A DNA stretch of 64,000 bases from Zygnema cylindricum (taxonomy: Eukaryota; Streptophyta; Zygnematophyceae; Zygnematales; Zygnemataceae), in assembly GCA_037447655.1 (NCBI GenBank), contig JBBHKE010001209.1, positions 1-64,000 of the forward strand. The letters are read 5' to 3'. The position numbers and the translations under genes were made by a program. Below, one piece after another: positions 2,481 to 53,706 of the stretch (position 1 is its first letter; every line of letters starts with the position of its first letter). The notes beneath the pieces are model-generated. The model did no database searches. It saw only the letters and a program-made list of their open reading frames with translations, and had not been told where the DNA came from.

Positions 2481-3929
2481 GAAGTTTTTTCGGAGACATT
2501 TTTTGAGGGATTTTTGGACGTTTCTAGGAAAGTTTTAACAGGTTTTTGTTCCTCAAAAGTTTTTTTCGGCTTTTCCCTGTCTCTCTTTAATCTTTTCCTT
2601 TTCTTTTTTTTTCCCTATCTCTCTCCTCCCCTCATTTTTTATGAAGGTTTCTGCTAGATTTATCCAAACTTTTTTTTTTTTGGGTTTTTTTTAAAAAGTG
2701 TCGGTTTAAGAGGTGGGATGGAAAATATCGGCTCGGAAATGTGGGTCTTGTTTTCCCACTCTATATTCTCTCCCCTTTTTTTTTCTTCCCTTTTTTTTTG
2801 TGACCCTTAGACACATTTTTTTTTCTCTTTTTTGGATATTTTTTTTTTTGGCGCCCAAATAAGAAAAGTGCATAAAGTAGAAAGGCTATGATATCTGGGA
2901 GTAAATACCTGAAAAAAACTGAGAAACTGCCCTGAAAAGAATTGTATTTGCCCGAAAAAAAAACTAACTGCCCGAAACAATGAATTGCAACTGCACGAAA
3001 AAAAGGAACTGCCCGGAAAAAAAGAACTGCCCGGTAAAATAACTGCTTGAAAAAAAAAACTTTCCGAAAAGAAAAGAAAAGCTACTAAGAAAAATTAAAT
3101 CTTAGCCTGTTTCCATTTATGTAATTTTTCGCAATGCTCGAATTGCGGAGGCATTTGGGTAAATAGAAGTAAAAAGTTTAAATTTGAAATTTGTACTGAT
3201 TTTTTGTTGTTTATTTTTTATTTGATTTTTTTTACCCTTTGAAAGTGGTTATTGATGGGAACAAAAGTTGGACTTTATTTTTTTATGACTTCTTATTTTG
3301 TTACTTTTATTTCTTTAGTTTATTTAAGTTTTATTTTTTCATATATTTTTTCTAGTGACGTTTTTCATCCACTAGGGTTAAGGAGAAATTGCAATATCTA
3401 TCAATTAAACGCTTTTTGATATATTTGAGTAAAACCGTTTTTATGTGTATAATAAACATTAAAATATTGGAATGTATAATGTATCAAAAATTTAGTTTTT
3501 TCTGTTCGGTAAGATTAAAATAATCATGAAAAACTAATAATAATTTAGTTTTTTCAAGTTCAATGTGACAACGATAATAGCTAAAAAAACTGTAAACCAC
3601 ACTTGAATACTAATATAATTAGGGCTTGATTGGTATGTAGTACAAATCGCTTCAAAAACAAAAAATGGAAAGGATATGTTTGAAATCTCCAATGGGTTGT
3701 ATCAAAAAGATAAATTCTAAATTTGAAATTTTATTTTGATGGTTAAATTTCCAACGTCATTTGTTCTTTTTGTTTTCTTTCTAAACATTGGAAAAATTAA
3801 TTAACTTCTCAACTTTAATTGTTTTTTGATTTTCCTGCCTTTTAAATATTGGAAAAAAATATTAGAAAAAACATAATATTTTCTAATGGTTAGTTCAGTA
3901 TAGCATCCAGTTTCTATGCTAGGGGGAGC
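2481..3929. other. Intergenic, no gene seen; contains a degenerate tandem repeat
   Basis: AT-rich sequence with long T runs. At about 2909-3075 a degenerate unit of roughly 17-20 bases (core aactgcccgaaaaaa) is repeated about eight times. Nothing else can be supported; the 3' end of the LUX-like transcript probably lies in the first part. Confidence 0.5.
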
Positions 3930-6357
3930 TGGTTTTGGAGCTTGGTATTGGCTCCACCTATTTTTTCACACCGCCCTCAGGTTCAAGCTTTGCCTCCCAA
4001 TCCACTTTCACTCTGCTCTCCATGCATGATGGTGGGATTCGCCCTATTGCCGTGGGAGAGGTTTTATATAGATTGGTGGCTTGTGCGATATGTCTCCAGC
4101 TCCAACCAGCTTTCCATGATTATTTCTCTCCTCATCAGTTTGGAGTGGCCACGAGAGGAGGTTGTGAGGCCGTGGTCCACGGGATTAGGCTTTGTTGGAT
4201 GTGCATCCGGATTGGTTGGTCCTTAAGGTCGACATTTCCAATGCCTTTCAATACGGTGGATCGTAACATGATTTTTTCGGAGCATATGGCGGCTCCATCC
4301 AATTGTCCAATTATTCCCCTTTGTAAGAGCTTTCTATTCTCTGACAAGCATCCTTTCTTTCTCGGCCGACGGTGATCTCATTCCTCTCTCCTCTGCGACT
4401 GGCACTCGCCAGGGAGACCCTCTTTGCGGATCTTTGTTCGCCCTCGCCCATTACCGAGCCCTTCGTGCTTCCGCAGCCACCTTCCGTTCTTGCCTTTTCC
4501 CTTCGGTTGTAGATGATACGCACATTATTGGGCCTAGAGAACAAGTCTTGTAGGCATATGATTTTTTCAATGAACGTTTAGCAGAACTCAACCTTTCAGT
4601 CCAACCTTCGAAGTGTGTTATTTGGTCTCCTCGGGATATTCCACCTTCCTTTACTCCCCCTCCTGGTTTTCAAACCCCTTCTCCCTCTGATGGCATTCGT
4701 GTGCTTGGTTGCCCCCTTGGTTCGGATACTTTCGTTTCCCAATTCCTTCATGATGCTTTACAATCAGATTTGGCCCAAGTGGATGACCTTCCTCTCCTTC
4801 CCGATCCCCAAGTGGCATTTGCTATGTTAACCAAGTGCTTTCCCCACCGCCCTTCTTACCTTACTCGTACTTCCCCTGCCACCTTGACGTTTGCTCCTCT
4901 CTCTCGGCTTTTGACGATCGCCTCATGGATGTCCTCCACACTCTGTTGGGTCGTGAAGCGTTCGATCGCGAGTCTAGGCCCACGGCCCGTATTCAGGCGT
5001 CCCTCCCTGTCTCTACTGAGGGGTTGGGTCTATTATCGACAGCTCGTGTTGCTCCAACTGCCCATTTGGGGAGTTGGCGCCTTATTGCCTCTACTCTTGT
5101 TTCCCATTTCTTGGCTGGGGACACCCCCGTTCTAGCTCTCGTTGTCCCTCGGGTTTCGGACGGTGTGTTCGCCTTCCAGTCTTTATTGAACGCATCACGT
5201 TCTCTTCCTCCCCATGCCCTGTTGGATGTGCCGATTCTCTCCACCCTAGTTACAAAATCCGTTGAGCGTGTCCAAGAATCGATTTCCAATCGGGTTGTCG
5301 CCGCCATAAAATCTAAGCTTCTCGAGGCGCTTCCCCCTGATTCTTCGTGTGCCCGTCTTCTGTCTTGTGGTGGACCTGATTATGGGTCTTGACTTTTCGC
5401 TACACCAATTTTGTCCACTCTCCGATTCTCACCAACTCTGTTCACCACCGCCCTCCGGTTTCGCCTTGGCCTCCCCCATCCTCTTTTATTTGGCTCTCTT
5501 GTTCGTGCATGTGGGCGCGTCCTTGGCCCCGATGGTGTCCATTTGCTTCATTGCTCATATGGGGGGGATTTGATCCAAGCCCACGACACTATTCGCGATG
5601 CCGTTGCGACTATCGCTTCAAAGGGGAGCTTTTCTGTGCGTCGGGAGGTTTCTCGTATTATTCCCAAGCGTCGGATCAATGTTGTTTTGCTTGATGGTGC
5701 CCGTCGCATCTTCGGTGATATTGTTTTGGCTAACCCTACTTCAGTTACAGTTGTTGGTTAGGCGGCTCGACATGTTGGGGTGGCGGCTTGTGATGTCGCT
5801 AAGGCGAAGGAGCCTGATTATGCCTACCGGGACCCTATGGATGACTTTATTCCGATGGCGGTCGAGATCTTTAGTTATCTAGGTGTTACAATGGACGAGT
5901 TCCTCCGTACTTGCGCTCGACGTGCTTTCGAGCGATGAGGACCAGGGAGCCCTCCTCCTTCGCTCCTTAATTCTTTTTATCGTCAACGCTTATCTATGGC
6001 TTTACAACGAGTGCAAGCTTATATTCTCCTCCGATCGGCTGTTGCGGCTATGGATCGTCGCCGGGTTCCAGAACTCCCTAAACGTGCTCCCCCGGGATGG
6101 GGGGGCTTACGTGGTTGCTTTTCGTAGTTATTTAACTGGGTTGGGGTTGTAGTTTTTTTTTTGTCAGTTGCCGTGCCTTTCATTTTGAGTTTGGTTGATT
6201 TTATTTTCCTTGTTGTTGTTTTCTTTTTGTTTTTGTTTTGCTGTTATTTTATTCCCCTGTTGGTAGTTTATTCCCCTTTTGGTAGTTTATGCCACCGGTT
6301 TTGTACCCCTAGACTCAGATGGTTTACCATCGTGCTTTTGAATTTAACTTGTTGAGA
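3930..6357 (+). mobile_element. Decayed non-LTR retrotransposon with RT and a C-terminal endonuclease-like region
   Basis: Broken frames spell out a reverse transcriptase. RPIAVGEVLYRLVA (about 4035-4080) is an RT finger motif. VDISNAFNTVDR (about 4220-4263, another frame) carries the palm motif A Asp. VVDDTHIIGP (about 4506-4535) is the palm DD motif. A conserved block beginning LPVSTEGLGLLSTARVA lies at about 5000-5050. The C-terminal section (5411-6150) has a Cys/His cluster (LLHCSYGG followed by QAHD) and then INVVLLDGARRIFGDIVLA. This resembles the C-terminal region that follows RT in some plant and protist retroelements and could be a restriction-like endonuclease fold; that assignment is inference. 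Several frameshifts and stops make it inactive. The 3' tail, 6150-6357, recurs at 20.8, 57.8 and 58.0 kb and so defines the element's 3' end. No 5' end or target duplication was found. Confidence 0.75.
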
Positions 6358-6589: not shown

Positions 6590-8456
6590 CCATCACACCA
6601 AAAACCATCTGCGATATACCGATTCCAGCTTAAAACGTCAAAAATGCGCGTCGAAAACTTAGGACTTGGGAGTTGCCGATCGGACATAATACGGCGGCGT
6701 CAATAATATGAGTGCCGATTGGACGGTCAGGATGAACTCGAACCTGTCGCGCTCTAAACTGACCGTTAACGCTTATTAAGTGAAAATCGAGGCCAAAACC
6801 TTTCGGCGCCAAACCTATAAAAAGGTGCAAGGCGGCCTTCGATGTTTTTATTTTGTTTAGTTGTCAAATGCTTTTCTTCCTATGTTTCGACTGTTCCAAG
6901 GGTCTTGCATGCATAGATCGCCACGTCAAAAAGTTTTAGAGGAACAAGAGGTCGCCACGTGTATAGATGTAGAGTAACAAGAGGTCGCCACGTGTACAGT
7001 TGTAACGGAACATTTTGGAGGTTTTGGCATGGAGATTGTAAGGTGCGACGTCAGCATGATTTTCTTGAAGAATTGTGGAAAAATTCATGCGTTATTTTTG
7101 TTGTTTTTTTTCCATGTGACATTATTGTAATTTTTATTTTTATTTTGATTGCAAGTTGTTATCTAATTGAAGTTATAAGGCTTAAAGCTCTTCAGTTTTC
7201 GGCTAATTTGTGAATTTTCAATAAGGTTTTTGTTTTTTAGGAGAAAAATATAAGCGGAGATTGATCATTTTTTACAATTTTATGTCACTAACTTGAGGAA
7301 TCGTCTATTTATTTACTTGTTGGGGCTTATTTTTTGTTTACATATTATTCTCTGGTCGAATGCATTCAAACTTATACACCTAATTTAGTGTGGGGAACCA
7401 ATGTTCAGCTATTTGTGTTTCTTTTTTCTTATTTTTTAGGCAGTTTTTGTGTTTGTAACCTTTGCTACAATAATGATGTCAATTCATGTTATGTCAATTT
7501 ATAGAATAGGCTTAGCATATAATGAAACGGAAAATGCAAGCAACTCTTTTGAAATTTAAGAAGATACTCTTCCTGTTGTTGCATTTATGGTTTGACATAC
7601 ATAGAAAAAAAATTGAAAAAAAACCCCTTAAAAACCCTTAAAAACCCAAAAAACCCTAAAAAACCCTAAACACCAAAGAAACCCAATTCTGCTTTACGCA
7701 ACAACAGGAGTATTTGTATATGCAGGAGTATCTGCTCTGCTTTTTTATTATTATTATTATAAAAAATGCTCATGAAACCAAAAGTGGTGTTGGGTTCTTA
7801 AAGAAGTTTAATCTTCCTCTTGATATTTTGACAGTAATCTAAACCATTTACTATGCGCTTCGGTAGACTTTTAAGGACAAATATACTCTTATAAAGACAA
7901 ATATACTCTTTACAATTCGAAGTAATACTTGGTAGATTCTACTGAATGTATGCTCCAGGAGGCAATGATATAATAACAGTATTCATTGTTGCAATAAAAA
8001 ACCAGAAATGTATACAAATAAATAAATGAAAACCAAAAACTAGGTTTTTTCAGAAAATGAAAAAAAATAACAATTTCACGCAATGAATAAATACACGAAT
8101 ACCAAAAATTAGGTTTTTCAGATTTTTTGTCTAATATCAAAGAGAAAATATAGTAGAAAAACAAACAAAAAATTAAAATAAATTGAAAAAAATGAAATAA
8201 AATTACGTTAAAGAAAAAAAAGTAAAAAAAAAAACAAAAAAGTAGATGAATAAATGAACGAAAACCAAAAACTATAAAAAATGAGAAAATAATAAAAAAA
8301 GACACAAATAAACGATAAATTATCGTTTCAATGGTATTTTTTTCAATTTTTTCGATTTCTTCGAAAATTAACTTTTTTCGTCTTCACAGATAAACCTACC
8401 TGTCATAACTCTTTCTTGCGGTAGAGATTAATCCTGACAGGCTTTCAAGTGCCTCC
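6590..8456. other. Intergenic, no gene seen; G-box repeats and AT-rich DNA
   Basis: At about 6910-7000 a roughly 33-base unit containing gtcgccacgtgta occurs twice intact and once degenerate, giving two CACGTG G-boxes at about 6954 and 6987. From 7020 to 8340 the sequence is AT-rich with homopolymers, including runs of aaaaccctaaa at about 7620-7670. Open frames are AT artefacts. Confidence 0.5.
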
Positions 8457-10736
8457 ATGGCACCATTTTCTAGCTTTCGAGCCTCTCGTTTTACTGGGAG
8501 GGAGAGAGGCATCTCCACTAATTTTCCAGTCTTAGTACCCTTTTTTCTTGAGTACTCCAACGAAGGCTCAAAAGCTTTGTTGAAGGGACCCTCTTTTTTT
8601 CTTGGGTCGGAAAGAATGACCAGAGAATTAGGGCAGAAAAAAAAAGTAAGCCAATGAAGGCGTCGGTTTCGACTGGTCCGAGGGATTCGACCAATGAAGA
8701 AGATAAACAGGCGATCGAGTCTGTTTTTTAGAAGATAAAAAAATGGAATTTAATTGAAGATGAAAATGTGGTTCAGATTCTAGAATCTTCGATGGAATCT
8801 GTGCTTATAAGATGGCCTCGTGAAATAAATGAGGTGACCTTTGTGCTATCCTTAAGAATATTAGAGATGTGAATCTGGCATTAAAGGTTCTTCATTGGGC
8901 CGCCGGCTGGTTTAACCTTATTATAGCAAATTTAACACACTACAGCATTTTGTTACGAAAATGTAGGGAAAATGGTGATATGGAAAATGCAAGTCGTATT
9001 TGGAGGGAGAGGAAAGAGTACGGTAGTAAACTGGATATGGGGACATACAACAACATTGCACTAGTCATGTATAATTCAGGTAGGGTTGACTTAGCTCTGA
9101 ATGTCTTTCAGAAAATGAAACAAGCTGGTTTTAATCCCAATGGGGTCACATACAGCATCTTGATAGAGGCATTGGGAAACTAAGGCAAGGAGAAAGAGGC
9201 ATTATCAATATTTTAGGTGATGAAACTCGCTGGGATAAAGCCAAAGAAAAATACTTTCAGTTCATTCAGTACATTTATAGATGTGTTGGAGAAAAAAGGC
9301 AGGAGGGAGGAGGTATTTTATGTGTTTAAATAAATGACTCAAGCAGGGGTGAACCCGGGGAAGGCGACATTTGTCATGGTTATAAAGATGTAGGAAGGGC
9401 TGGTATAGTTGATGAGGCTTGGTGTTGTTTTGGGAAATTAAAGAAAAGTGAATTAAATGCAGATGTAAGCGACTACGTTGATATGATTGACATTCTAGGA
9501 AGAAATGGGAAAGTTCAAGAAGCCTATAGCCTTTTTAAAGAGATGAGGAAATTTGGGTTGTCACCGGATGCGAGGAAATGTCACAACTTAGTAAAAGTCA
9601 TGTGCGAGTCAGGTAGGGTTGACTTGGGAGTGACTTTGCTCAAAAAAATGGACCAATCAGGGAGCAAGCCTGATGTTGTGATGTACAAAATTATTGTGGA
9701 CAAGACGGTAAAGGAAAACAAGGTGGAGGCAGGTTTACGTATTTTAAATGAGATGGAACATAATGGGCTACCAGCCCGCGAGCTTACCTACAACACACTT
9801 ATGGATGTGTTGGGAAAGGCTGGTACGGTTAATGAGGTTTTACTTATGCTGGATAAGATGAAACAAGCCGGTTTTAAGACCAAGAAAGAGGTATATCACG
9901 TAGTGTTAGAAAAGTTAAAAATGGCAGGAAGGGCTTCAGAAGTTTTGATGATATTTGAGAAGATGGAATATGATGGTGTGAAAATAGACGAGTCCAGTTA
10001 CCATTCAGTTATCAATATGTTGGTAATGATGGGTAGAGTTGAGGAGGTTGTTCAAAACTTTGAGAAGATGAAACAAGCTGGTTTCAAGCCAAACAAGGTG
10101 ACCTACAATGTGTTGTTGAATGTTTTAGAAAATGCAGGCGAGTTAAAAGAGGCTTTATCGACATTCAAAGAGATGAAACTTGTGGGGCTGGATCCAAGTA
10201 CAAAAACATTTAACAAATTGATAAAGCTATTGGGGAATGCTGGATTGGTCGAAGAGGCTTTGAATGTCTTTAGGCATAGAGAGTATTTTGATGTAAGTGT
10301 TGACACAATGACCTTTAATGTCATAATTCGAGGTTTGGGAAAGGCAGGACGAGTTGAAAGAGCCCTGAACCTCTTCAAACAGATGAAAAAGGTGGGATTG
10401 TCACCAAATGTTAAAACCTTCGATGTTGTTATCGATATGTTGACGAAGGCCAAAAAAGTGGATGAAGCTTTGGTAATTTTTCAACAAATAAAAAAAAATG
10501 GAGAGGGAAGTGAGGGGAGAGCTGGTATAAAAGCCTTCAACTTTATGATAAATGAGTCAGCCAAGCACGGGCGGCTTGACGAGGCTCTTCATATGTTGGA
10601 AAAAATTGTTGAAGCTGGAGTGCAACCTGACCATACAACATTAAATGTGGTTAAAAATGCTTTGTTAAAAAAAAGGAAGTGGGGTAAAGTGTCTTCACTC
10701 CTTAGAGCTGTGAATAATTCTGCATCATCAGCGTAG
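8457..10736 (+). pseudogene. P-class pentatricopeptide repeat (PPR) gene, disrupted 5' half
   Basis: The last 417 codons (9483-10736) are open and contain about eleven 35-residue P-type PPR motifs, with typical starts such as LTYNTLMDVLGKAG and VTYNVLLNVLENAG, and end at a TAG after the Ser/Ala-rich tail. PPR proteins of this class bind organelle RNA, one base per repeat. The 5' half is broken. Repeats continue upstream through 8869-9183, but that stretch ends in a stop (9181-9183), a TAG and a TAA follow in the same frame at about 9214 and 9329, and a frameshift falls at about 9390. Further upstream, PPR-leader-like sequence (KWNLIEDENVVQIL, about 8740) is in yet another frame behind a TAG. 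Four or more lesions argue for a pseudogene. A shortened protein starting at 9483 would lack a transit peptide. No intron is needed to explain it. Confidence 0.8.
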
Positions 10737-35738: not shown

Positions 35739-37509
35739 CTAGTCACTTTTTAATTTTAATCCACAGTTTTCTCTGCAATAAATCAACTTAGGGGAAGGCA
35801 CTGGTTTTGTCATCATGTTTGCTATCATTTCTCTATCAGTTTTATGAACCAGTTTAATAATTTTATTTTCAACCTTCTCTCTGACAAAGCTCAGTCTAAT
35901 ATCCATATACTTAGCTTTGAAGTGATGTTTCGGATTAGCTGCAATAGAGATAGCAGCTTGATTATCACAAAAAACATTTTGAGTTCCAGACTTCATGAAC
36001 CCAAGTTCTTCAAGAAGAGATTTAACCCACATTAATTCTTTGGTGGCAGCACAGGAAGCCATGTATTCAGCCTCCATAGTGGACTGAGCAATTACTTTTT
36101 GTTGCTTGCTACTCCAACAACATGCACCGGATCTAATTTGCAACACATATCCAGTCGTACACCGCCTTAAAGGCACATCTCCATAACTGACATCACTCCA
36201 GTTGGTGATGTCAGTGTGCTCCCCTCCCAAATGCAACCATAATTCCCTTGTCCTCACCAGATACCTCATCACCCTTTTGGTAGCCTCCCAGTCTCTCTTT
36301 CTTGGTTCATTTAGACTTCTACTAAGGACACCTACAGCTGCAGCTATATCCGGACGGGTACAGTTCATTAAATAAATTAAACTGCCTACAATCTGCCGAT
36401 AAAGGATATTTTCTATAAATTTTCTTTGTATCTCATCGATCTCATCATTAATGATCAATATTCCTCTCTCTTCACTCCCCTCAAACACATTCTTCAAATC
36501 CATACGAGTAGTACATCCGTTTGCTTTTTCCATCTGAAAACTTTCTAGCATATTACTGATTGCTCTTATTGAGTGAGTCTTATAATTCTATTCCCTCTAT
36601 CTCTCTCCATTTGAATTCCCAAAATATACTTTGCTTCGCCGAGATCTTTCATATCAAAACTGCTTCTAAGATCTCGTTTTAGTTTGTTAATTTTATCTAA
36701 GACTTGCTTAAGACCAACAAATCATCTACATAAATAGCAATAAATATCACTCCATTCTCATCCTCAAATAAATATATAGAGTGATGTGAACTAATTCTGA
36801 TATACCCAAAACCGGTCAGAAATTCGTCTAGCTTTATATTCCATTGTCGTGGGGCTTGCTTAAGCCCATAGAGTGATTTTATTAGTTTACAAACCTTGCT
36901 TTCTTCCCCGCTTTCCACGAATCCTTCCGGTTGCCTTATGTAAATTTCTTCTTCCAACTCTCCGTGCAAAAAGGCCGTTTTAATATCCATCTGGTGTATT
37001 TCCATATCCTCCGCTGCGGCTATACTTAAAAGGATTCTAACTGAAGGAAATCTGACTACAGGTGCAAAGGTTTCTTCGTAGTCTATCCCCTCTTTCTGAG
37101 TATAACCTTTTGCAACTAACCTAGCTTTGTACCTCTCAATGGTATTATCGGGGTTTAATTTAAGTTTAAACACCCACTTACATCCGATCGGTTTTCGGTC
37201 CGGTGGACAATCTACCAACTCCCATGTATTGGCTTCCATGATAGAGGCCATTTCTTCATTTATAGCTGTGATCCACCGGCTACTTTCTGGAGTGTTTATG
37301 GCCTCTAAGTATGTTTGAGGTTCATCTGGGTGAGACATCTTTGTGAGTTGGTTATTTACTTGTCTTTCTTGAAGTCGTTTACTACTTCTTCTTCCCCCTT
37401 CAAAATCGGACGCCGGTATGGAAGGCATCCTTGGGTTTCGTTTTGGGAGATTTTCAGCTTCCCTATCTTCCAATTCCGGTGTCTCATCAAATTCCTCATC
37501 GGTTTCCAC
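35739..37509 (-). pseudogene. RT and RNase H of the third copia element
   Basis: RT is open at 36697-37509 with the polymerase motif IAIYVDDLLV intact and typical blocks such as KARLVAKGYTQKEGIDYEET and HQMDIKTAFLHGEL. RNase H is open at 35739-36551 (CTTGYVLQ, CWSSKQQKVIAQSTMEAEY). A frameshift in 36552-36696 separates them. The protein converts the element RNA to cDNA in working copies. Confidence 0.88.
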
Positions 37510-37559
37510 TTCGTATTGTGGCGTTGCCTCGGATGTTGTCCTTTCCTCCTTCTCCTTTG

Positions 37560-38476
37560 TTAAATCTGCAGATTTTTCTTTTTCTCCCTCTTCCTTCTCT
37601 TCATTTTCAAAGTCAAAGTCAGAAAACTGATCCGTTTCAAATCTGATTTTGACTTCCTTATTATATTTGAATGGATCATGGACTTCTCTTCATTCATCAC
37701 CACTATGTGTTTTTCCAGAATTATATCTCTCTTTTTCAAGTCGTTCACTCGGTATCCTTTTGTGCTCTCATCATATCCTACAAGATATCCTGGTTTCCCT
37801 CTTCCCTCTAACTTCCATTTAGTCTTATCGGAATCTAAACTATAAACTTGACTTCCGAACACTCAAACTAGACAAATCAGGCTTTCTTCCTGTCCACCTC
37901 TCATACGGAGTTTCCTATTTATTTGCTGAAGTTAGGACTCTATTTTTGATGAAGTTGGCATAGTTCATAGACTCAGCCCAAAACTGCAGCCCTATCCTCT
38001 TGTCACTTAACATACTTCTGGATATATCTTCTAAATTCTATTCACTTTTTCTGCTACTCCATTTTGTTCCGGATTATAGGGAATTGTTTTCTCATGATGA
38101 ATTCCTTCTTCTTTAAGATATTCTTCAAATTCCCTTGAGGTGTATTCTTTCCCATTATCACTTCTTATCTCTTTTATTGAGGTTTCATGTAGCTTTCACT
38201 CCATACTTTATACTCTTTGAAACATCTTAATACCTCTGACTTATGTTTGAGAAAGTATACCTTCGTGTATCGAGACCAATCATCTGTGATAGTTAACATC
38301 CATCTCTTCCCCCCATGTGAAGCATACCTAGCATGTCCCCAAACATCAGTGTGAACTATATCTAATACTTTCTCTCTCCTATATGTGGTTGCCTTTGGAA
38401 ATGGAAGTCTATGAATCTTCCCTTGGGCACATACACTATAATCATCAAAGGTCTCATCATCTTCAAAAGTAATACC
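37560..38476 (-). pseudogene. Integrase of the third copia element, frameshifted
   Basis: The C-terminal part is open (37560-37862, VFGSQVYSLDSDKTKW reading). The core region 37863-38476 is recognisable by alignment with the second element (plus-strand ctccattttgttccgg corresponds to the PEQNG block) but is broken by stops and shifts. Confidence 0.75.
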
Positions 38477-40161
38477 CTACACTATTCCCTTTTTCTTCAT
38501 TTTCTTTAATCTATCTAGATGCACATGCCCCAACCTTTTATGCCAAAGCATCATCTCACTTGCACACGAGTATAGAACACTCTTTTCATTGCAAAGTACA
38601 ATTCTAAACATTCCTTGAATGCCCTTCTCAGCTATGAAATAAACCTCATTATCAAAGCTTGCTGTGAAGATTCCTTTCCTAGTTCCTGTTTCAAACTCCT
38701 TTTCATCTAAGACAGCTGTTGAGACTAGGTTCTTGCTAAGCTGTGGAATGTAAAGAACGTCTGAGAGTGATACAATTGAGGCCTTTCCATCAACTAAAAC
38801 CTTCAAGTCAACAGTTCCAACAAGACTTGTGGTTTCTACTCTACCATCTCCGTACTCTATCTCAACTGTTGGGATTTTTCTCAGTTTAGTGAACCACCGC
38901 TTATCTTTGCACATATGCATTGAAGCCCTTGAGTCTATGATCCATCCATCCTCGGGTGGATACCTTTTACCTCCAAAATCACACTTTTGTCTCCGTGGAA
39001 TGTCGACATGCTTTTCAGTGTTTTTTAGATTAAGAAGAAGCTCCTCAAGCTCCTCTTCTGGTTCGGTTTTTTCTTCCACTTCCTCATCATAAACTTGAGT
39101 GAAGAAAGCCTTTCCTCCATCCCTTGAGGTTCCTTGACCATCTTTGAGTCGAAGATCTGCAAGTTTGACACAATCTGCCATATAGTATCCCGGTTTCTTG
39201 AAGAAGTGACATAATCCTCCTCGAGAAGCTCCTCTCCCTTGTCTATCAAATCTGCCACCTCCTTGTCCTCTTCCACCAAAGTTTCGATAGGGATCTTTCC
39301 CTCTCTCCTCATCACGCTTCCGCCAATCAGCTCCTGCATACAATGCTTGAACACTTGGACTCCCTCTCCTAAGCTCTATGGTGCTTTCTTTCACTAAAAT
39401 CATTCCCACTGTGTCATCCCAATTCCAATTGCTATCTCCTATGTCCTGCAATCGGTTAATGATATTCTCATACTCTTCAGGTAGTTTCATTATTAGTGTG
39501 TTCACTCTTTGTCTCTCAGACCATGAGTTACCTGCACTCTCTAACTCTCCAAACAATGCTCCTAAATCATTGCAATAATTATCCATACTTCCTCCCTTAT
39601 AAGTATAAGCTGCAATCTTATTTTCTGCCAACTGTTGCTGCTGCAATGATCCACTCTTATATTTGTTAACTAGTGATATCCAAATCTGAGATGAAGATTG
39701 ACATGCATAAGGGGAATGGCAATGCCCTTTGCTACACTTTTAAGAATTAAGAGCTTAGCAACCTTGTCTTTGTAGTTCCACTTTTCATACTCCGATCTTT
39801 CGATCTGAACCCTTGTCGCCGTTTTTGGTGGTGCTGCTGCCGGTATCGCCTTCGGCAATGGTGTCACTTGAGTTGCAACTCCTCCCTTTTCTCCTTCCAT
39901 GACAATATCCTCTCTTTCCTCATCTTCATCCTCGGTGATGGTGACAGCTGTTCAACCAACTGTAGAGGCGGAGGTGCCAGAAAAACGTGTCCCTCCAAAC
40001 CCAGGTGGAGGTGGGCATCGAATTTGTCCAGACACTATGCCCCATAGATGCTTCTCCAATAGTTCTCCCTCCATCATCATTTCCCAATAAAGAAAGTCTG
40101 ATCCATCAAATATGGGCACCCCAGAGGGTGGGCCCATAACTTGAAATTCTCTGGTCTCCAT
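38477..40161 (-). pseudogene. gag and protease of the third copia element
   Basis: gag begins at 40161 inside the 5' LTR and reads through the primer site (FQVMGPPSGVPIFDG). A stop at 39952 and a frameshift at about 39650-39670 interrupt it. The main open part, 39646-38477, includes gag, a damaged zinc knuckle (CHFFKKPGYYMADC, second Cys and the His lost) and the protease with WIIDSRASMHMC, where the Gly of the active-site triad is Arg. It continues to the integrase zinc region (LWHKRLGHVHLDRL). Confidence 0.85.
40127..40141 (-). other. Primer binding site, initiator tRNA-Met anticodon arm
   Basis: AGTTATGGGCCCACC follows the LTR end directly on the coding strand. It matches the complement of the initiator tRNA-Met anticodon arm with one mismatch at the first base. 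Confidence 0.7.
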
Positions 40162-48626: not shown

Positions 48627-51600
48627 ATGATGAGCAAACCAAAATTCGACATGTCGGCAGCTTTAGAAGATGACCTAGATCTGCCGGACTTGCCGCTCCT
48701 CGGACCGTTAGAGACCATAGGCCTAGGTCACATGGGAGTCCTCCATGGTTTCGCTGAGGCCACAGATAATTATTCCGAAAATATGGATTTGTCCACAGGC
48801 GGTACAACAACGCCACGTGTCATTGGAGAAGGAAGCAGTGTCTCTGGAAGCTTGAGAGCTCCTTCTTCTACTTCCTTGAACGATAGCAGCTCTCAACACT
48901 GGCAAAATTCCTTTGGAGGATCTCCTTCCATGCCTTTTGGACAGCAGGCCTTGCATTCGCTGGTAGGCTTTTGTCTTTTTAGGCTTTTGTCTTTTTCTGT
49001 TTGGTTTTCAGTTTCTGCTTAGATTCTAGGTAGAGTTTGGTGAATTGTGGCGTGTTTCAGATTTGACTTTGGTCAACGCTTGGTTGAGATCCCTTCGTTT
49101 TATGGTTGTTGAGTTCTGGTTTGTTGTTTTTGGTTCCGGTTCCGGTTCAGTTGTATTTCTTGATTCCCCAGCCTTGATGAAGGCTATTTTTTGTTCTATT
49201 CTATTTAATGTTCGTCTGAGTTTGTGCTGGATGTTTTTGTATGATTATTTGTTTGCCTTCATTTCTATTTTGGTGTGATATTTGTTGTTCCAATAATGCT
49301 AATAGTTACGGTCACATGTCAGTTTTTCTGGTGAAGGTTTTAGGTTGCTTTTTTGTTTGGGATTCTTGTTTTTTTTCTCTATGGGAAGAGCGAATCAAGC
49401 CAATTGCTGCTCCTCTTTTGTCTATCTGTACGGATATAAAAGAGATACTCTTAGGTTTCAGCCAGGAATGAATGCATTGTTTAGCTTTAATATATTTGAG
49501 TAGCATGTACAGCTACTCTTGTAGCTGATTGATGGCCGTAGATTCTCCTTTTTTTTCTGTTCAATTATCAAATATAAGCGTCAGTTAATGCTGTATTTCT
49601 ATGACTTATCACTTCTTCTTGTAGTCTGACCCAAGCTGTTTGGTCTTTCATCAAAACCTTTCTTGTCAATTATTTTCTAAAGCTTCTTTGTCAACTTTGT
49701 CCTTGCACTTTTGATACTTGAAGAGCGTTTTAAAGCTTATGGCTTTTGCCAATTTTGTGCAGCAGCTCGCTTTAAACATTGCTCGTACGGAAGAAGTTAT
49801 TAGCAATATAACTCGTGAACGTAATCAGTTTCAAAAGGAATATTCAAAGGCCCAGCTAGCAGCTCAAAAGCTTATGCAGGAGAAACTTCTTCTGGAGGAG
49901 AAAATTCGAAACTATGAGGTCCTTGTGGAACGTATGGGAATGCAAGCATTTCAGGAAGCAATGCAAACACTCAGGGATGCTTTTGATCAGGTAAAGGACT
50001 AACTCTAATAGTATTCCAACATTTCAATTTATCTCATAGCAAAAAATACAAATGTGGGGTTGGAGTGAAGTCTGACTTATTTCTGGAAAAGTTGTTTTTG
50101 TTTTGTGTCACAGGCTCCTATTCCAAGAGGCATTCGTTTTGCCCCCACTGATGTAGAAGTGTTTGATTATCTATCTCGAAAGCTTCGAGGCGCACAAGAA
50201 GATGTCGGATTGGACCGCTTTCTAGTTCGGCGTTTGCGAGGAGTACAAGATTCTGAAGGTCTTATTCCAGAAGTGGAATTATTAAAGTTTCCAAGGCCAT
50301 GGCATCTACCAGGTGTGTTCTACGTCCTTGAGTTTAGGAGAACTGCTTTTGTATTTCATGGGAGGTTTTAAGTTAAGAGCTCATTTTTTAAAGTTTTTCT
50401 CACTGATTTTGTCTTTTTTTGGGTTGGGAAACAGGTCTCGATGTGGCTCCGGATGGAAAAGGGCAAGTGGGATTTTACTTTGTTCGACCAGAATGGCGTC
50501 CCAATGAGAGAAGAAGAAGACGAGAGGCAGATATGGCCGCAAGAGACGGGAAACCTCCTTGTTGGAAGGAATCTTGTCAACCTACCACTTTTGACGATCT
50601 TCGACCAGGATATGGAGGTCGTCCAGAGAGGAGAATGTTTAGATTTAAGCTTCCCGGTACTCGAGAAGGACCTGCAGGAGAAAAGAAGGAAAAGTGGAAA
50701 ATGTACGAGTACACTCTAAAAAGTGATGCAGAAATGTATGAGGATCGACGGAACGGTTTACAGGTGTGGGTGGTTTGTAAAGTTGTAAGAGAAGGGCCCA
50801 TGACTGCAGATGAGATAGAAGAGCAGAATGAGAGGATCTTAGGTGGAGGGGGAGGAGGAGGAGGAGGAGGAGGATTTCCTGGTGCAGGTAATGGAAATTT
50901 CTTTGGAGGAGGGTTAGGAAGAGGGCCTGGAATGGGCGGACAAGACGGAACATCATCATCTGGTACCGGCGGCTCAAGTATATCTGGTCTAGGACAGTCC
51001 TTCATGGGAGGAGGAGGTCCTTTTGGGGGAGGCGGGATGCAATATTCCTTCAGAACAGCAGCAGGAGCACAATCTGGAGAGGGAAATGCAAAAGGGAGCC
51101 CTCCATCTGGTTCTAAAGGGGAGGAAAAGAGCAGTACCACTGCCTCAGGGAACTCGACAAATGGAACGTCTCAAGGTTCTGGAGAAATTAAGAGCTCTAC
51201 CAGCGCAAGTAGAGGTCTTCTAGACTGGCTTCAGTCTGTACCTCCTCCAATGCCTGTTAAAGACAGAAGAACTGGATTGGCTGTGGTTTTGGAAGATGGG
51301 TCTAAAGGGGGACAAGAAGGCGAGCTTATTGTTAATGCTGGGATTTCTTCTTCGAGCAGTGTGAGTTGGATGGCGAGATTTCCAGATGCTCAAAAGGTAG
51401 TTGGCTCTCTTCTTGAGGACTTCTTCGTGAGCAAGCTCGTTGTGCAGTTGAGACAGGAGGAAGTTTCTGGGAAGGGAGCCTGTTTGGAACCTCCTAGTTG
51501 GAGACGAGCCTTGACCGAAGAAGACTGGAAAACGGAAGAAAGTGAGGAGGATGTAGAGTTACCTGCTTCTGAAGAAGGAGAGGAGGAGGAGGTAGAAGGA

Positions 51601-53706
51601 GAATATGAAGATGACGATGAACTCTGTAGACCAATGGAAGGAAGTGCTCTGGACGTTCTTGCAAAATCAATGCTAGCGGAAGTGAAGAGTTTGTCGATTG
51701 CATTATCGGATTCCTCCGAAAAAGAAATTTCTGGTCGCCTCGAAGGTTTTCTTTCAAAGACATCTGTGGTCCTTAATGAGTTCATCAGTCAGGCAGGACG
51801 TGATGAACCGGCGGCTCAACTATGGCTAGAATCTCTTCAAGACAGTTTACAGAAAGTGAGAACCGTCATAGAAAGTCTGGCCGGGAAAGCCCAGTCTCGA
51901 ATTCTCCTTCTTGTGAAGAGTCCGGAAATGGCTCAAGAGGCTCAAGTGGCTGTGAGACGCTTGGCTCATGTTTTGTCTCTTTTACCTAATGTCCATTTGG
52001 ACGCCATGTCAGCAGACGTTAGAAGGCAACTCGGAGAATTGAAGGGAGCCATGGTTAAGGAAAATTTTGCACCGATGGCCTCGACTTTGGAGGCCATTTG
52101 CAAATTACAACAGGCCTTGGATGCAGGAAAATCTGGGCGAAAAGGTGAAGACGAAAAGAGTTTGAAGAATTGGGGTGTGAAGGAATTGGATTTGAGTTCT
52201 GATGATATTGCGGATCTGAAGGCCTTGAACAAATTGAAGGAGGCTCTGCTTGGGTTTCCGAGTAAGACGAAGGCGAGTTCCCAAATGGGTATATCTCCGG
52301 TAATGAGCAGTTTGGTGGTGGAAGTTTTCTCCCTTGTGGGTGTTCAATGGGATTCTTCAGCTGTTTCTGTGGAGTTGGAAAGGCTGGGGAAAGTCACAGA
52401 GGCTCGAGGAGTTCAGAAAAATGTAGTGAAAAATGTAAAACCTGAAGGAGAGGACGCGGATCTTGCAGAAGGGGTTATTGCTCTCTTAAGGGCTTGTTCC
52501 ACAGGTGTTGTCACCGATTACAATAGTCTCGACATCTCTCCGGATCCGAAAGTTGCGACTGGTAAATGTAAAGATTCAGTGGATTCGTGGATACCGACTC
52601 CTGCTCCTCTGGTTTACAGTTGTAAATTGTTTAACCGACAAGAGATTGACGGTGTTAAAGGGGAAAGGCTACAGGATGTCTTATCCGGAAAGCTGAACAA
52701 TTTCCCTGTCAGTTTGGTTTTCCTCGACAGAACTAAAGTTCCTGAAATTGCGTTACATCGGGAAGTGGAATCTGTTGCGAATATTCGGCATCCAAATGTC
52801 GTCTCTCTTATTGGTTGTTGCCCCGAAGCAGCTTGCCTGGTCTATGAACAACTCCCAGTTGTCAGCCTTGAGGATTATCTACACCAATCAGGAGGGTCGA
52901 CTCATCGAAATATGGGCCCAGAATTACCTCCTCTTCCATGGAACGCCCGTTTTATGATCTGTTATGAGATTGCTTCCGCCCTCGCTTTCCTACACGATCA
53001 GAAACCTGTTCAAGTCTTACATAGAGACGTTCGTCCGGCAAATGTCATGATTGGTTGGGATTCGACCAATTATGTCGCAACGGGGATATGGCCTACTAGC
53101 AAAGTCCTTCGAGGTAGTGTTGTGAGTAAACTCGCAGGTGTGGGAGTAGCTGCAATTGGTAGAGAACATGAGCCTGGAAAAACTCCTATGGATGGGGACG
53201 GACTGTATTTGGACCCGTCTTTTGCAAGATCGGACTGTTTCTTTGTTCCCTCAGCCGATGTTTATGCTTTGGGAGTTATTATGGCTCAATTGTTGACCGG
53301 ACGACATCCCCCGAGTGCGATAAGAGCCGTGGCTTCAACTTTCGATGGAGGAAAGAAGACTCTTGTGTCGGTTTTGGATCCAAAGGCTGGGGATTGGCCA
53401 ATGGGAGCCGCGGAGGTATTTGCGAGAGTCGCGTGGAAATGTTCTATGTTGGAGAGAGCTGCTCGACCAGAGCTGAAGGAAGTGCTCCCTCTACTCGAAA
53501 AGGTGGGTCAATATGTGTGTATGTGTTCTTTTTTTGGATGAGTTTTTTTTTACTTTTATTATATTACCATTTTAAGTGGCGAATATGTTGAATTGCTATT
53601 TCTTTGCTCTACGAAAGTTAGGATTTTCTGGGTGGGCGGGTGATTTTCTATGGTTGTTGTTGATTATGGGATTTTTTGTTAAATGCAGGCCGTGGGTGAA
53701 TGCTGA
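48627..53706 (+). CDS. NAC domain-UND-pseudokinase fusion protein, about 1,282 residues
   Basis: Five exons: 48627-48962, 49763-49990, 50114-50312, 50435-53502 and 53689-53706, all GT-AG and in phase. Exon 2 (residues about 113-188) is a coiled coil. Residues about 190-372 form a NAC domain: GIRFAPTDVEVFDYLSRKL, PRPWHLPG, VGFYFVRPEW, MFRFKLPGTREG, WKMYEYTL and VWVVCKVV match NAC subdomains A-E, though the WKATG core is altered (PCWKES). A Gly-rich linker follows (about 392-464), an acidic stretch, then a helical region (about 655-910; AKSMLAEVKSLS, VLSLLPNVHLDAMSADVRRQL) like the UND domain of plant U-box ligases. The end (about 985-1277) matches the kinase of U-box kinases: REVESVANIRHPNVVSLIG, VLHRDVRPANVMI, SADVYALGVIMAQLLTGRHP, RPELKEVLPLLEKV. 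No Gly-rich loop is seen, the VAIK Lys is absent (FPVSLVFLD) and DFG is AGV, so it is a probable pseudokinase. No U-box is present. An earlier in-frame ATG at 48522 is possible. Confidence 0.85.

Follow-up and report, generated by a model that had tools for sequence, protein, structure and literature searches.

A gene of Zygnema cylindricum and related algae that joins a NAC domain to a U-box-kinase-type pseudokinase

A 64,000-nucleotide stretch of Zygnema cylindricum DNA (GenBank assembly GCA_037447655.1, contig JBBHKE010001209.1, positions 1 to 64,000 of the forward strand; hereafter the window, meaning the whole stretch analyzed) contains a gene, at 48627-53706 on the forward strand, whose 1,282-residue product carries a NAC (NAM/ATAF/CUC) domain in front of a pseudokinase of the U-box-kinase type. 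The analysis establishes one gene and one protein, its domain order, the homology of its NAC domain, the absence of catalytic residues from the kinase, and selective constraint on either half; the fusion is not decaying. Our reading, which we hold with middling confidence, is that it belongs to an old zygnematophyte NAC subfamily, in which (i) a U-box-kinase-type domain was joined behind the NAC domain once and (ii) catalysis was then lost, so that the kinase part would now serve for docking or as a switch on a protein that binds DNA and is probably a dimer.

The gene model comprises five exons, and its four GT-AG introns splice cleanly. The features of the gene are as follows:

48627-48962, forward strand: exon 1 (gene model), residues 1-112, the N-terminal region, with the acidic/hydrophobic stretch DDLDLPDLPLL
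49763-49990, forward strand: exon 2 (gene model), residues 113-188, a coiled-coil-like helix preceding the NAC domain
50114-50312, forward strand: exon 3, residues 189-255, start of the NAC domain (RFAPTDVEV ... PWHLPG), ending in phase 1 immediately past PW-LP
50123-50718, forward strand: NAC (NAM) domain, Pfam PF02365, residues 192-349, with the intron 50313-50434 inside; similarity continues to about residue 374 (50793)
50435-53502, forward strand: exon 4, 3,068 bp, residues 255-1277, with the second part of the NAC domain, linker, helical bundle, and pseudokinase
50563-50580, forward strand: WKESCQ, residues 298-303, where two ordinary NACs of the same genome carry WKATGKD or WKASGKD
50845-51633, forward strand: Gly/Ser-rich linker, then a Glu-rich stretch, residues about 392-654 (by composition)
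51634-52071, forward strand: predicted helical bundle ("UND-like"), residues about 655-800 (AlphaFold)
52105-52605, forward strand: low-confidence region, residues 812-978, with a predicted local distance difference test score (pLDDT) below 50
52624-53502, forward strand: pseudokinase, U-box-kinase type, residues about 985-1277
52717-52719, forward strand: VAIK Lys replaced by V1016 (alignment with U-box kinases)
53020-53028, forward strand: HRD, residues 1117-1119, kept (same alignment)
53137-53139, forward strand: DFG Asp replaced by G1156 (same alignment)
53689-53706, forward strand: exon 5, AVGEC followed by the stop codon (gene model), kept in the second genomic copy

Exon 4 is a single open reading frame that runs from inside the NAC domain to the end of the kinase; the frame is open across 1,044 codons, and it is open in the second genomic copy as well. 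A preliminary description of this DNA had placed the C-terminal half of a NAC domain, a Gly-rich linker, a helical region, and a kinase on one exon of about 3 kb and had dismissed a joining of neighboring genes. Exon 4 bears out the first statement, and a gene-model artifact is ruled out by this exon, the second copy, and seven relatives, which all agree. The AlphaFold model of the entire product has a mean pLDDT of 63.4 and a predicted template modeling score of 0.46, and on this model residues 812-978 are probably flexible. No plasmid sequence matched a portion of exon 4 in a megablast search.

The same domain order recurs in other algae. A protein database search (5.8 billion proteins, 7,994 candidates scored) gave 28 matches, of which the best seven (P0001-P0007) carry a NAC domain and a kinase in the order of the window protein, while the remaining 21 are kinases without NAC in their precomputed Pfam domains. 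P0003-P0005 are named Closterium and are stored in public databases as unnamed products; going by protein codes, we take P0002 (jgi/Mesen1) to be from Mesotaenium endlicherianum and P0006 and P0007 (SM-numbered) to be from Spirogloea muscicola, and all three genera belong to the Zygnematophyceae. P0001, with 1,445 residues, is named like a Trinity transcript, which suggests that a single assembled RNA of this relative spans the complete order. The NAC domain exceeds the Pfam cut-off in all seven relatives, narrowly so in Closterium (28.6-30.1), as does the kinase (PF07714), narrowly so in P0001 (23.9 vs 23.1). Identity to the window protein is 62-84% in the NAC domain, by far the best conserved part, and 35-49% in the kinase; exon 2, whose helix is a possible dimerization element, aligns in all seven at 21-33%. 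The C-terminal Cys encoded by the mini-exon 53689-53706 is common to P0002, P0006, and P0007; P0001 ends in Cys-Glu, and the three Closterium proteins are without it.

A profile of the NAC part retrieved two database proteins at E ≤ 1e-3, P0029 and P0030, which have Spirogloea-like codes and are probably from that genus; no land-plant NAC reached this threshold among the 7,999 candidates of limited length scored, which does not imply absence. The NACs of P0029 and P0030 are relatives of the fused type, aligning with 52% of the query at 52% identity, but the two proteins have no Pfam match at E ≤ 1, hence no kinase, and RF-PTD is replaced; they could be a second subfamily or else come from gene models that were split.

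The NAC domain of the window protein passes the curated PF02365 cut-off (40.9 bits vs 27, E 3.3e-10) at residues 192-349, within the interval 190-372 where the preliminary description had located it. In a PDB sequence search the first part of the protein matches NAC19 (E 8.5e-4 and 9.0e-4), and a profile of the NAC part matches PDB NAC proteins weakly (NAC19 at E 3.3e-4 for the full sequence, with no individual stretch below 0.3 in the displayed alignment). The landmarks RF, PW-LP, W-K, W-M-EY, and CK/CR are present. A PF02365 profile search of the Z. cylindricum genome (352.8 Mb, 2,689 contigs; 11 matches) identified other NAC genes on C859, C356/C1707, and C1464/C109 and a partial match on C706; it missed the fusion gene itself, whose NAC domain is split by an intron, and further such genes could escape likewise. 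When the genome was queried with exon 4, the NAC part was covered only by the two copies of the fusion gene, among the 45 of 1,283 candidates that were scored. A G|GTAAG donor stands at the codon and in the phase (1) of the intron in question, immediately past PW-LP or its equivalent, in all four canonical NAC places compared (C859, C1707, C356, and C1464), a comparison of donors in which C1707 and C356 look like one pair and from which C109 and C706 stood apart.

Within this domain, the putative DNA-contact strand and dimer residues are assigned after the arrangement in NAC19. All eight fusion proteins (the window protein and its seven relatives) carry CWKESCQ at the putative contact strand, with extra residues on both sides, and none has the WKATGKD strand there. 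At the same place, the own-genome NACs have WKATGKD (C1707), WKASGKD (C859), and, in the ordinary-length C1464, WKCQKI. The R, F, P, and E of RFxPTDxE and a basic run, RRRRE, are conserved in all eight. The preliminary description had called this part DNA-binding; it is a NAC by profile, but one altered where most ordinary NACs carry WKATGKD. The CxxxxC pair in CWKESC (residues 297-302), at the usual DNA-contact strand, is likewise invariant in the eight proteins, and on sequence grounds a metal site here is conceivable.

The kinase domain matches Pkinase (PF00069) at residues 1026-1217 (E 1.6e-17); an NCBIfam search gave kinases alone, far under the cut-off. At the three positions by which we judged a kinase active (VAIK Lys, HRD Asp, and DFG Asp), the window protein has V, D, and G, and no Gly loop could be recognized in it by eye. 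Loss of the DFG Asp extends to all eight fusion proteins (G, S, R, R, R, R, F, F). The VAIK Lys is gone in six (V in the window protein, E in P0001-P0005) and retained in P0006 and P0007 alone, and HRD is complete in five, which also retain the catalytic-loop Asn, and incomplete in three (LQD in P0001, HQK in P0006 and P0007). A kinase with HRD but lacking the VAIK Lys and the DFG Asp, in a protein with no U-box, is what the preliminary description had reported; the Pfam search agrees, with no U-box (PF04564) match at E ≤ 10 in any of the eight.

A second genomic copy, on contig C2600 (the window copy is on C907), is 98% identical across the exon-4 part and retains the five exons, splice sites, and frame, with an alignment gap touching a donor once (the window donor is GT). 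The two copies are haplotypes or a recent duplicate. With gaps excluded, base identity between them is 97.8-100% in the exons (333 of 336 bases in exon 1), 92.6% upstream, 94.8% downstream, and 94.9%, 94.3%, 98.4%, and 98.9% in introns 1-4, respectively. The flanks and introns have many indels, and the coding sequence has one, a 9-bp in-frame indel in the Gly tract of the linker. By the Nei-Gojobori method, the ratio of nonsynonymous to synonymous rates (dN/dS) between the copies is 0.15 overall: 0 in the coil, 0 in the NAC domain, 0.26 in the linker, 0.30 in the helical region, 0.30 in the middle region, and 0.14 in the kinase. In rounded counts, 22 of the 65 differences in the whole coding sequence are nonsynonymous vs 49.9 expected under neutrality, 8 of 24 vs 18.2 in the kinase (P 1e-5), and 0 of 6 vs 4.6 in the NAC domain; exon 2 has 0 nonsynonymous and 5 synonymous differences. 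These figures come from one pair of copies and describe recent constraint in a single lineage. Downstream of the gene, the match between contigs C907 and C2600 resumes, with interruptions, as far as about 61.6 kb of the window; upstream they differ in stretches close to retroelements. Near-equal match pairs on different contigs (C356/C1707, C1464/C109, C1038/C2136, and C907/C2600) fit unmerged haplotypes or recent duplication; C907/C2600 is the sole pair aligned in full.

The fused kinase is of the U-box-kinase type. Its nearest other kinase places in the genome, among the 45 of 1,283 candidates that were scored, are on C1269 (44% identity over the kinase end) and on C1038 and C2136 (42%), each with a U-box match behind the kinase, and the best database matches of a C-terminal profile include U-box kinases (E 9e-67 and 1e-53) that cover 41-45% of the query, namely the kinase. 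The two of these loci that we read have HRD and D-V-G and, by eye, a coiled-coil-like frame, the reading having covered these loci apart from the N-lobe exons. A tree was built from 24 kinase segments; it is unrooted and leaves the sister group unfixed. On it, the nine fused kinases (the eight proteins and the second copy) form one group (96/97, and 96% of 200 bootstrap trees), within which P0006 and P0007 branch off first. Its rows were chosen by us: 19 of 23 named proteins passed the segment rule (P0013, P0034, P0035, and P0036 were dropped), together with 5 of up to 14 genomic frames (a second kinase frame of C2141 being among those dropped). This tree supports a single origin of the fused kinase, which would predate the split of Spirogloea from Mesotaenium and Closterium. 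If Spirogloea is sister to the remaining Zygnematophyceae, the fusion is older than the living members of the class. The C2141 locus (489500-499400) itself has a U-box-kinase-type frame (8328-9365) with HSN for HRD and, by eye, no DFG; some 4 kb ahead of it lies another kinase frame (3150-4154), which has VAIK, HRD, and D-M-G. From its sequence, the frame at 8328-9365 is probably a further pseudokinase of the genome.

The ancestry of the helical region is less clear. AlphaFold predicts six helices at residues 659-796, with ten-residue blocks at pLDDT 72-91 and one block at 49, and the region aligns in five of the seven relatives at 20-51% identity, P0006 and P0007 being without most of it. PUB10_N (PF25368), Pfam's UND model, has no match at E ≤ 10 in any of four helical pieces, whose Pfam matches are at chance level (best E 0.019). 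Comparison by hhalign with the UND of the same genome gave a collinear 84-column alignment with a score of 17.0 (probability 0.8%, E 0.07); of 200 shuffles by residue, 3 scored at least as high, as did 8 of 200 by block, and the reversed sequence scored 15.4; Foldseek with the window model listed 50 matches, all kinases, with none for the helical bundle among them. UND ancestry is possible but unproven. The preliminary description had taken the UND and kinase parts to look derived together from a plant U-box kinase that lost its U-box: the kinase is of that type, but the joint descent finds no support. The one PUB10_N match in the entire genome belongs to a PUB gene, whose repeats look ARM-like by eye, and not to a U-box-kinase locus. 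This test is weak, because the UND model also misses the helical region of the window protein.

As for function, the basic run in the NAC domain suggests that the fusion protein would be nuclear; it would dimerize via the NAC domain and the coiled coil and bind DNA through a NAC with a diverged contact strand and altered specificity. The pseudokinase could then act as a docking, allosteric, or switch module by which an active kinase, e.g., an intact U-box kinase encoded in this genome, is brought to the complex on the promoter; that kinases with a U-box behind them coexist with the fusion gene counts in favor of this. A more far-reaching version, which we consider quite doubtful, is a one-protein signaling-to-promoter device, in which a NAC of changed specificity has its own pseudokinase receptor for U-box-kinase signaling, kinase and ubiquitin signals act on the DNA-bound complex, and the whole was present in the common ancestor of living Zygnematophyceae, whereas land plants never had it or have lost it.

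Several observations weigh against an old, maintained, DNA-bound subfamily. Indels aside, two of the four introns (98.4% and 98.9%) match the exon similarity between the copies; the helical and middle regions alone are not significant for constraint (5 nonsynonymous of 10, P 0.06); and divergence is faster in the linker, the helical region, and the kinase than in the NAC domain, with both Spirogloea proteins lacking the helical region. The kinase tree is unrooted, with several outer forks open, long branches for P0001 and others, and a long Spirogloea stem, and the U-box kinases, which do not form one group, need three changes on it. The whole-protein model of P0007 is of low confidence (mean pLDDT 41) and was not used as evidence, Foldseek giving kinases alone among the 50 matches listed. 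Lastly, with WKESCQ in place of the usual WKATGKD and insertions flanking it in all eight proteins, DNA binding may be changed or lost. The main competing explanation takes up this last point: a NAC without DNA binding would be a dimerization or interaction platform and the protein a scaffold with regulatory effect on U-box kinases or on other NACs, e.g., as a non-DNA-binding partner. The retention of the R, F, P, and E of RFxPTDxE, on the putative dimer side, and the coiled-coil-like exon, in which the copies differ at no amino acid, both suit such a scaffold, whereas the conservation of the NAC above all other parts, with a basic run that would suit DNA or nuclear import, and the deviation of the ordinary NAC C1464 from WKATGKD count against it; we think the scaffold rather unlikely.

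Catalysis offers another alternative, since HRD and the catalytic-loop Asn are complete in five of the eight proteins, and the kinase domain could retain unusual or weak activity, as reported for ILK1. The universal loss of the DFG Asp, the loss of the VAIK Lys in six proteins, the HRD Asp changed to Lys in both Spirogloea proteins, and the unrecognizable Gly loop of the window protein make this improbable. According to PMC4759884, NAM and Pkinase are both found repeatedly as domains integrated into NLRs of plants, and WRKY19 combines WRKY, NLR, and kinase, so that the kinase or NAC part might be a decoy that mimics an effector target and reports its modification, as proposed for NLR-integrated domains; but NB-ARC, LRR, and TIR are all missing from the Pfam matches of the window protein, and conservation across separated genera, with no excess of amino-acid changes between the copies, is unlike decoys, and we rate this very improbable. 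For an annotation or assembly artifact, or a decaying functionless fusion, the unusual order is the only argument, and it is set against one exon from the second part of the NAC to the kinase, the intact splice sites and frame of the second copy, seven database proteins of the same order, and the low dN/dS; we give it almost no credence.

Elsewhere in the window, positions 9330-10733 on the forward strand hold a PPR-repeat frame (one exon, 468 codons; PPR_2, E 5.3e-74), and about 28.6-39.7 kb on the reverse strand hold remains of a Copia-type long-terminal-repeat retroelement (RVT_2, E 1.7e-64, at 36700-37689; gag_2 and gag_pre-integrs at 38480-39739), and related sequence also precedes the second copy of the fusion gene on C2600.

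The preliminary description knew of no protein with this order. The order is not unique to the window, being found also in Closterium and, by protein codes, in Mesotaenium and Spirogloea; still, among titles, openings of abstracts, and term-matched passages of the open-licence literature, we found no paper that deals with a protein joining NAC to a kinase or pseudokinase. In the portions available, PMC11096116 counts 209 Pfam domain combinations unique to Zygnematophyceae, and the NAC-kinase combination may be among them in its supplement, but the text portions do not name it ("nac" there is NaCl twice and an author name); similarly, the portions of PMC11712027 describe a NAC expansion in Anydrophyta and name no NAC-kinase fusion. 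No NAC-pseudokinase fusion of land plants turned up among the database candidates scored (7,994 and 7,999). A NAC with a built-in dead kinase, common to several genera, would be an old wiring of kinase signaling to gene control, and it is open to direct study in cultured zygnematophytes.

Among known systems, the fusion resembles canonical NAC proteins in its profile, landmarks, and phase-1 intron after PW-LP, but differs from them in WKESCQ, the insertions in the domain, the coiled-coil-like exon in front, and a very long C-terminus with a helical bundle and a pseudokinase. It shares with the plant U-box kinases (P0031, P0033, and those on C1038, C1269, and C2136) the kinase type and the AG-WP and RP-L of the C-lobe, whereas it has no U-box and no USP, has lost catalytic residues, and carries a NAC domain in front. 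The closest parallels among plant proteins that unite DNA binding with a kinase are the WRKY-kinase chimeras (AtWRKY19 and BrWRKY58; PMC5112548) and NLRs on record into which NAM, WRKY, or kinase domains are built (PMC4759884). Those involve another DNA-binding family or an NLR context, whereas the fusion spans several algal genera and has a dead kinase; moreover, the WRKY-kinase chimeras, AtWRKY19 included, are described in PMC5112548 as restricted to flowering plants, whereas this chimera has long been kept under constraint. We take the NAC-pseudokinase fusion to be an old, maintained member of the transcription-factor-kinase chimeras.

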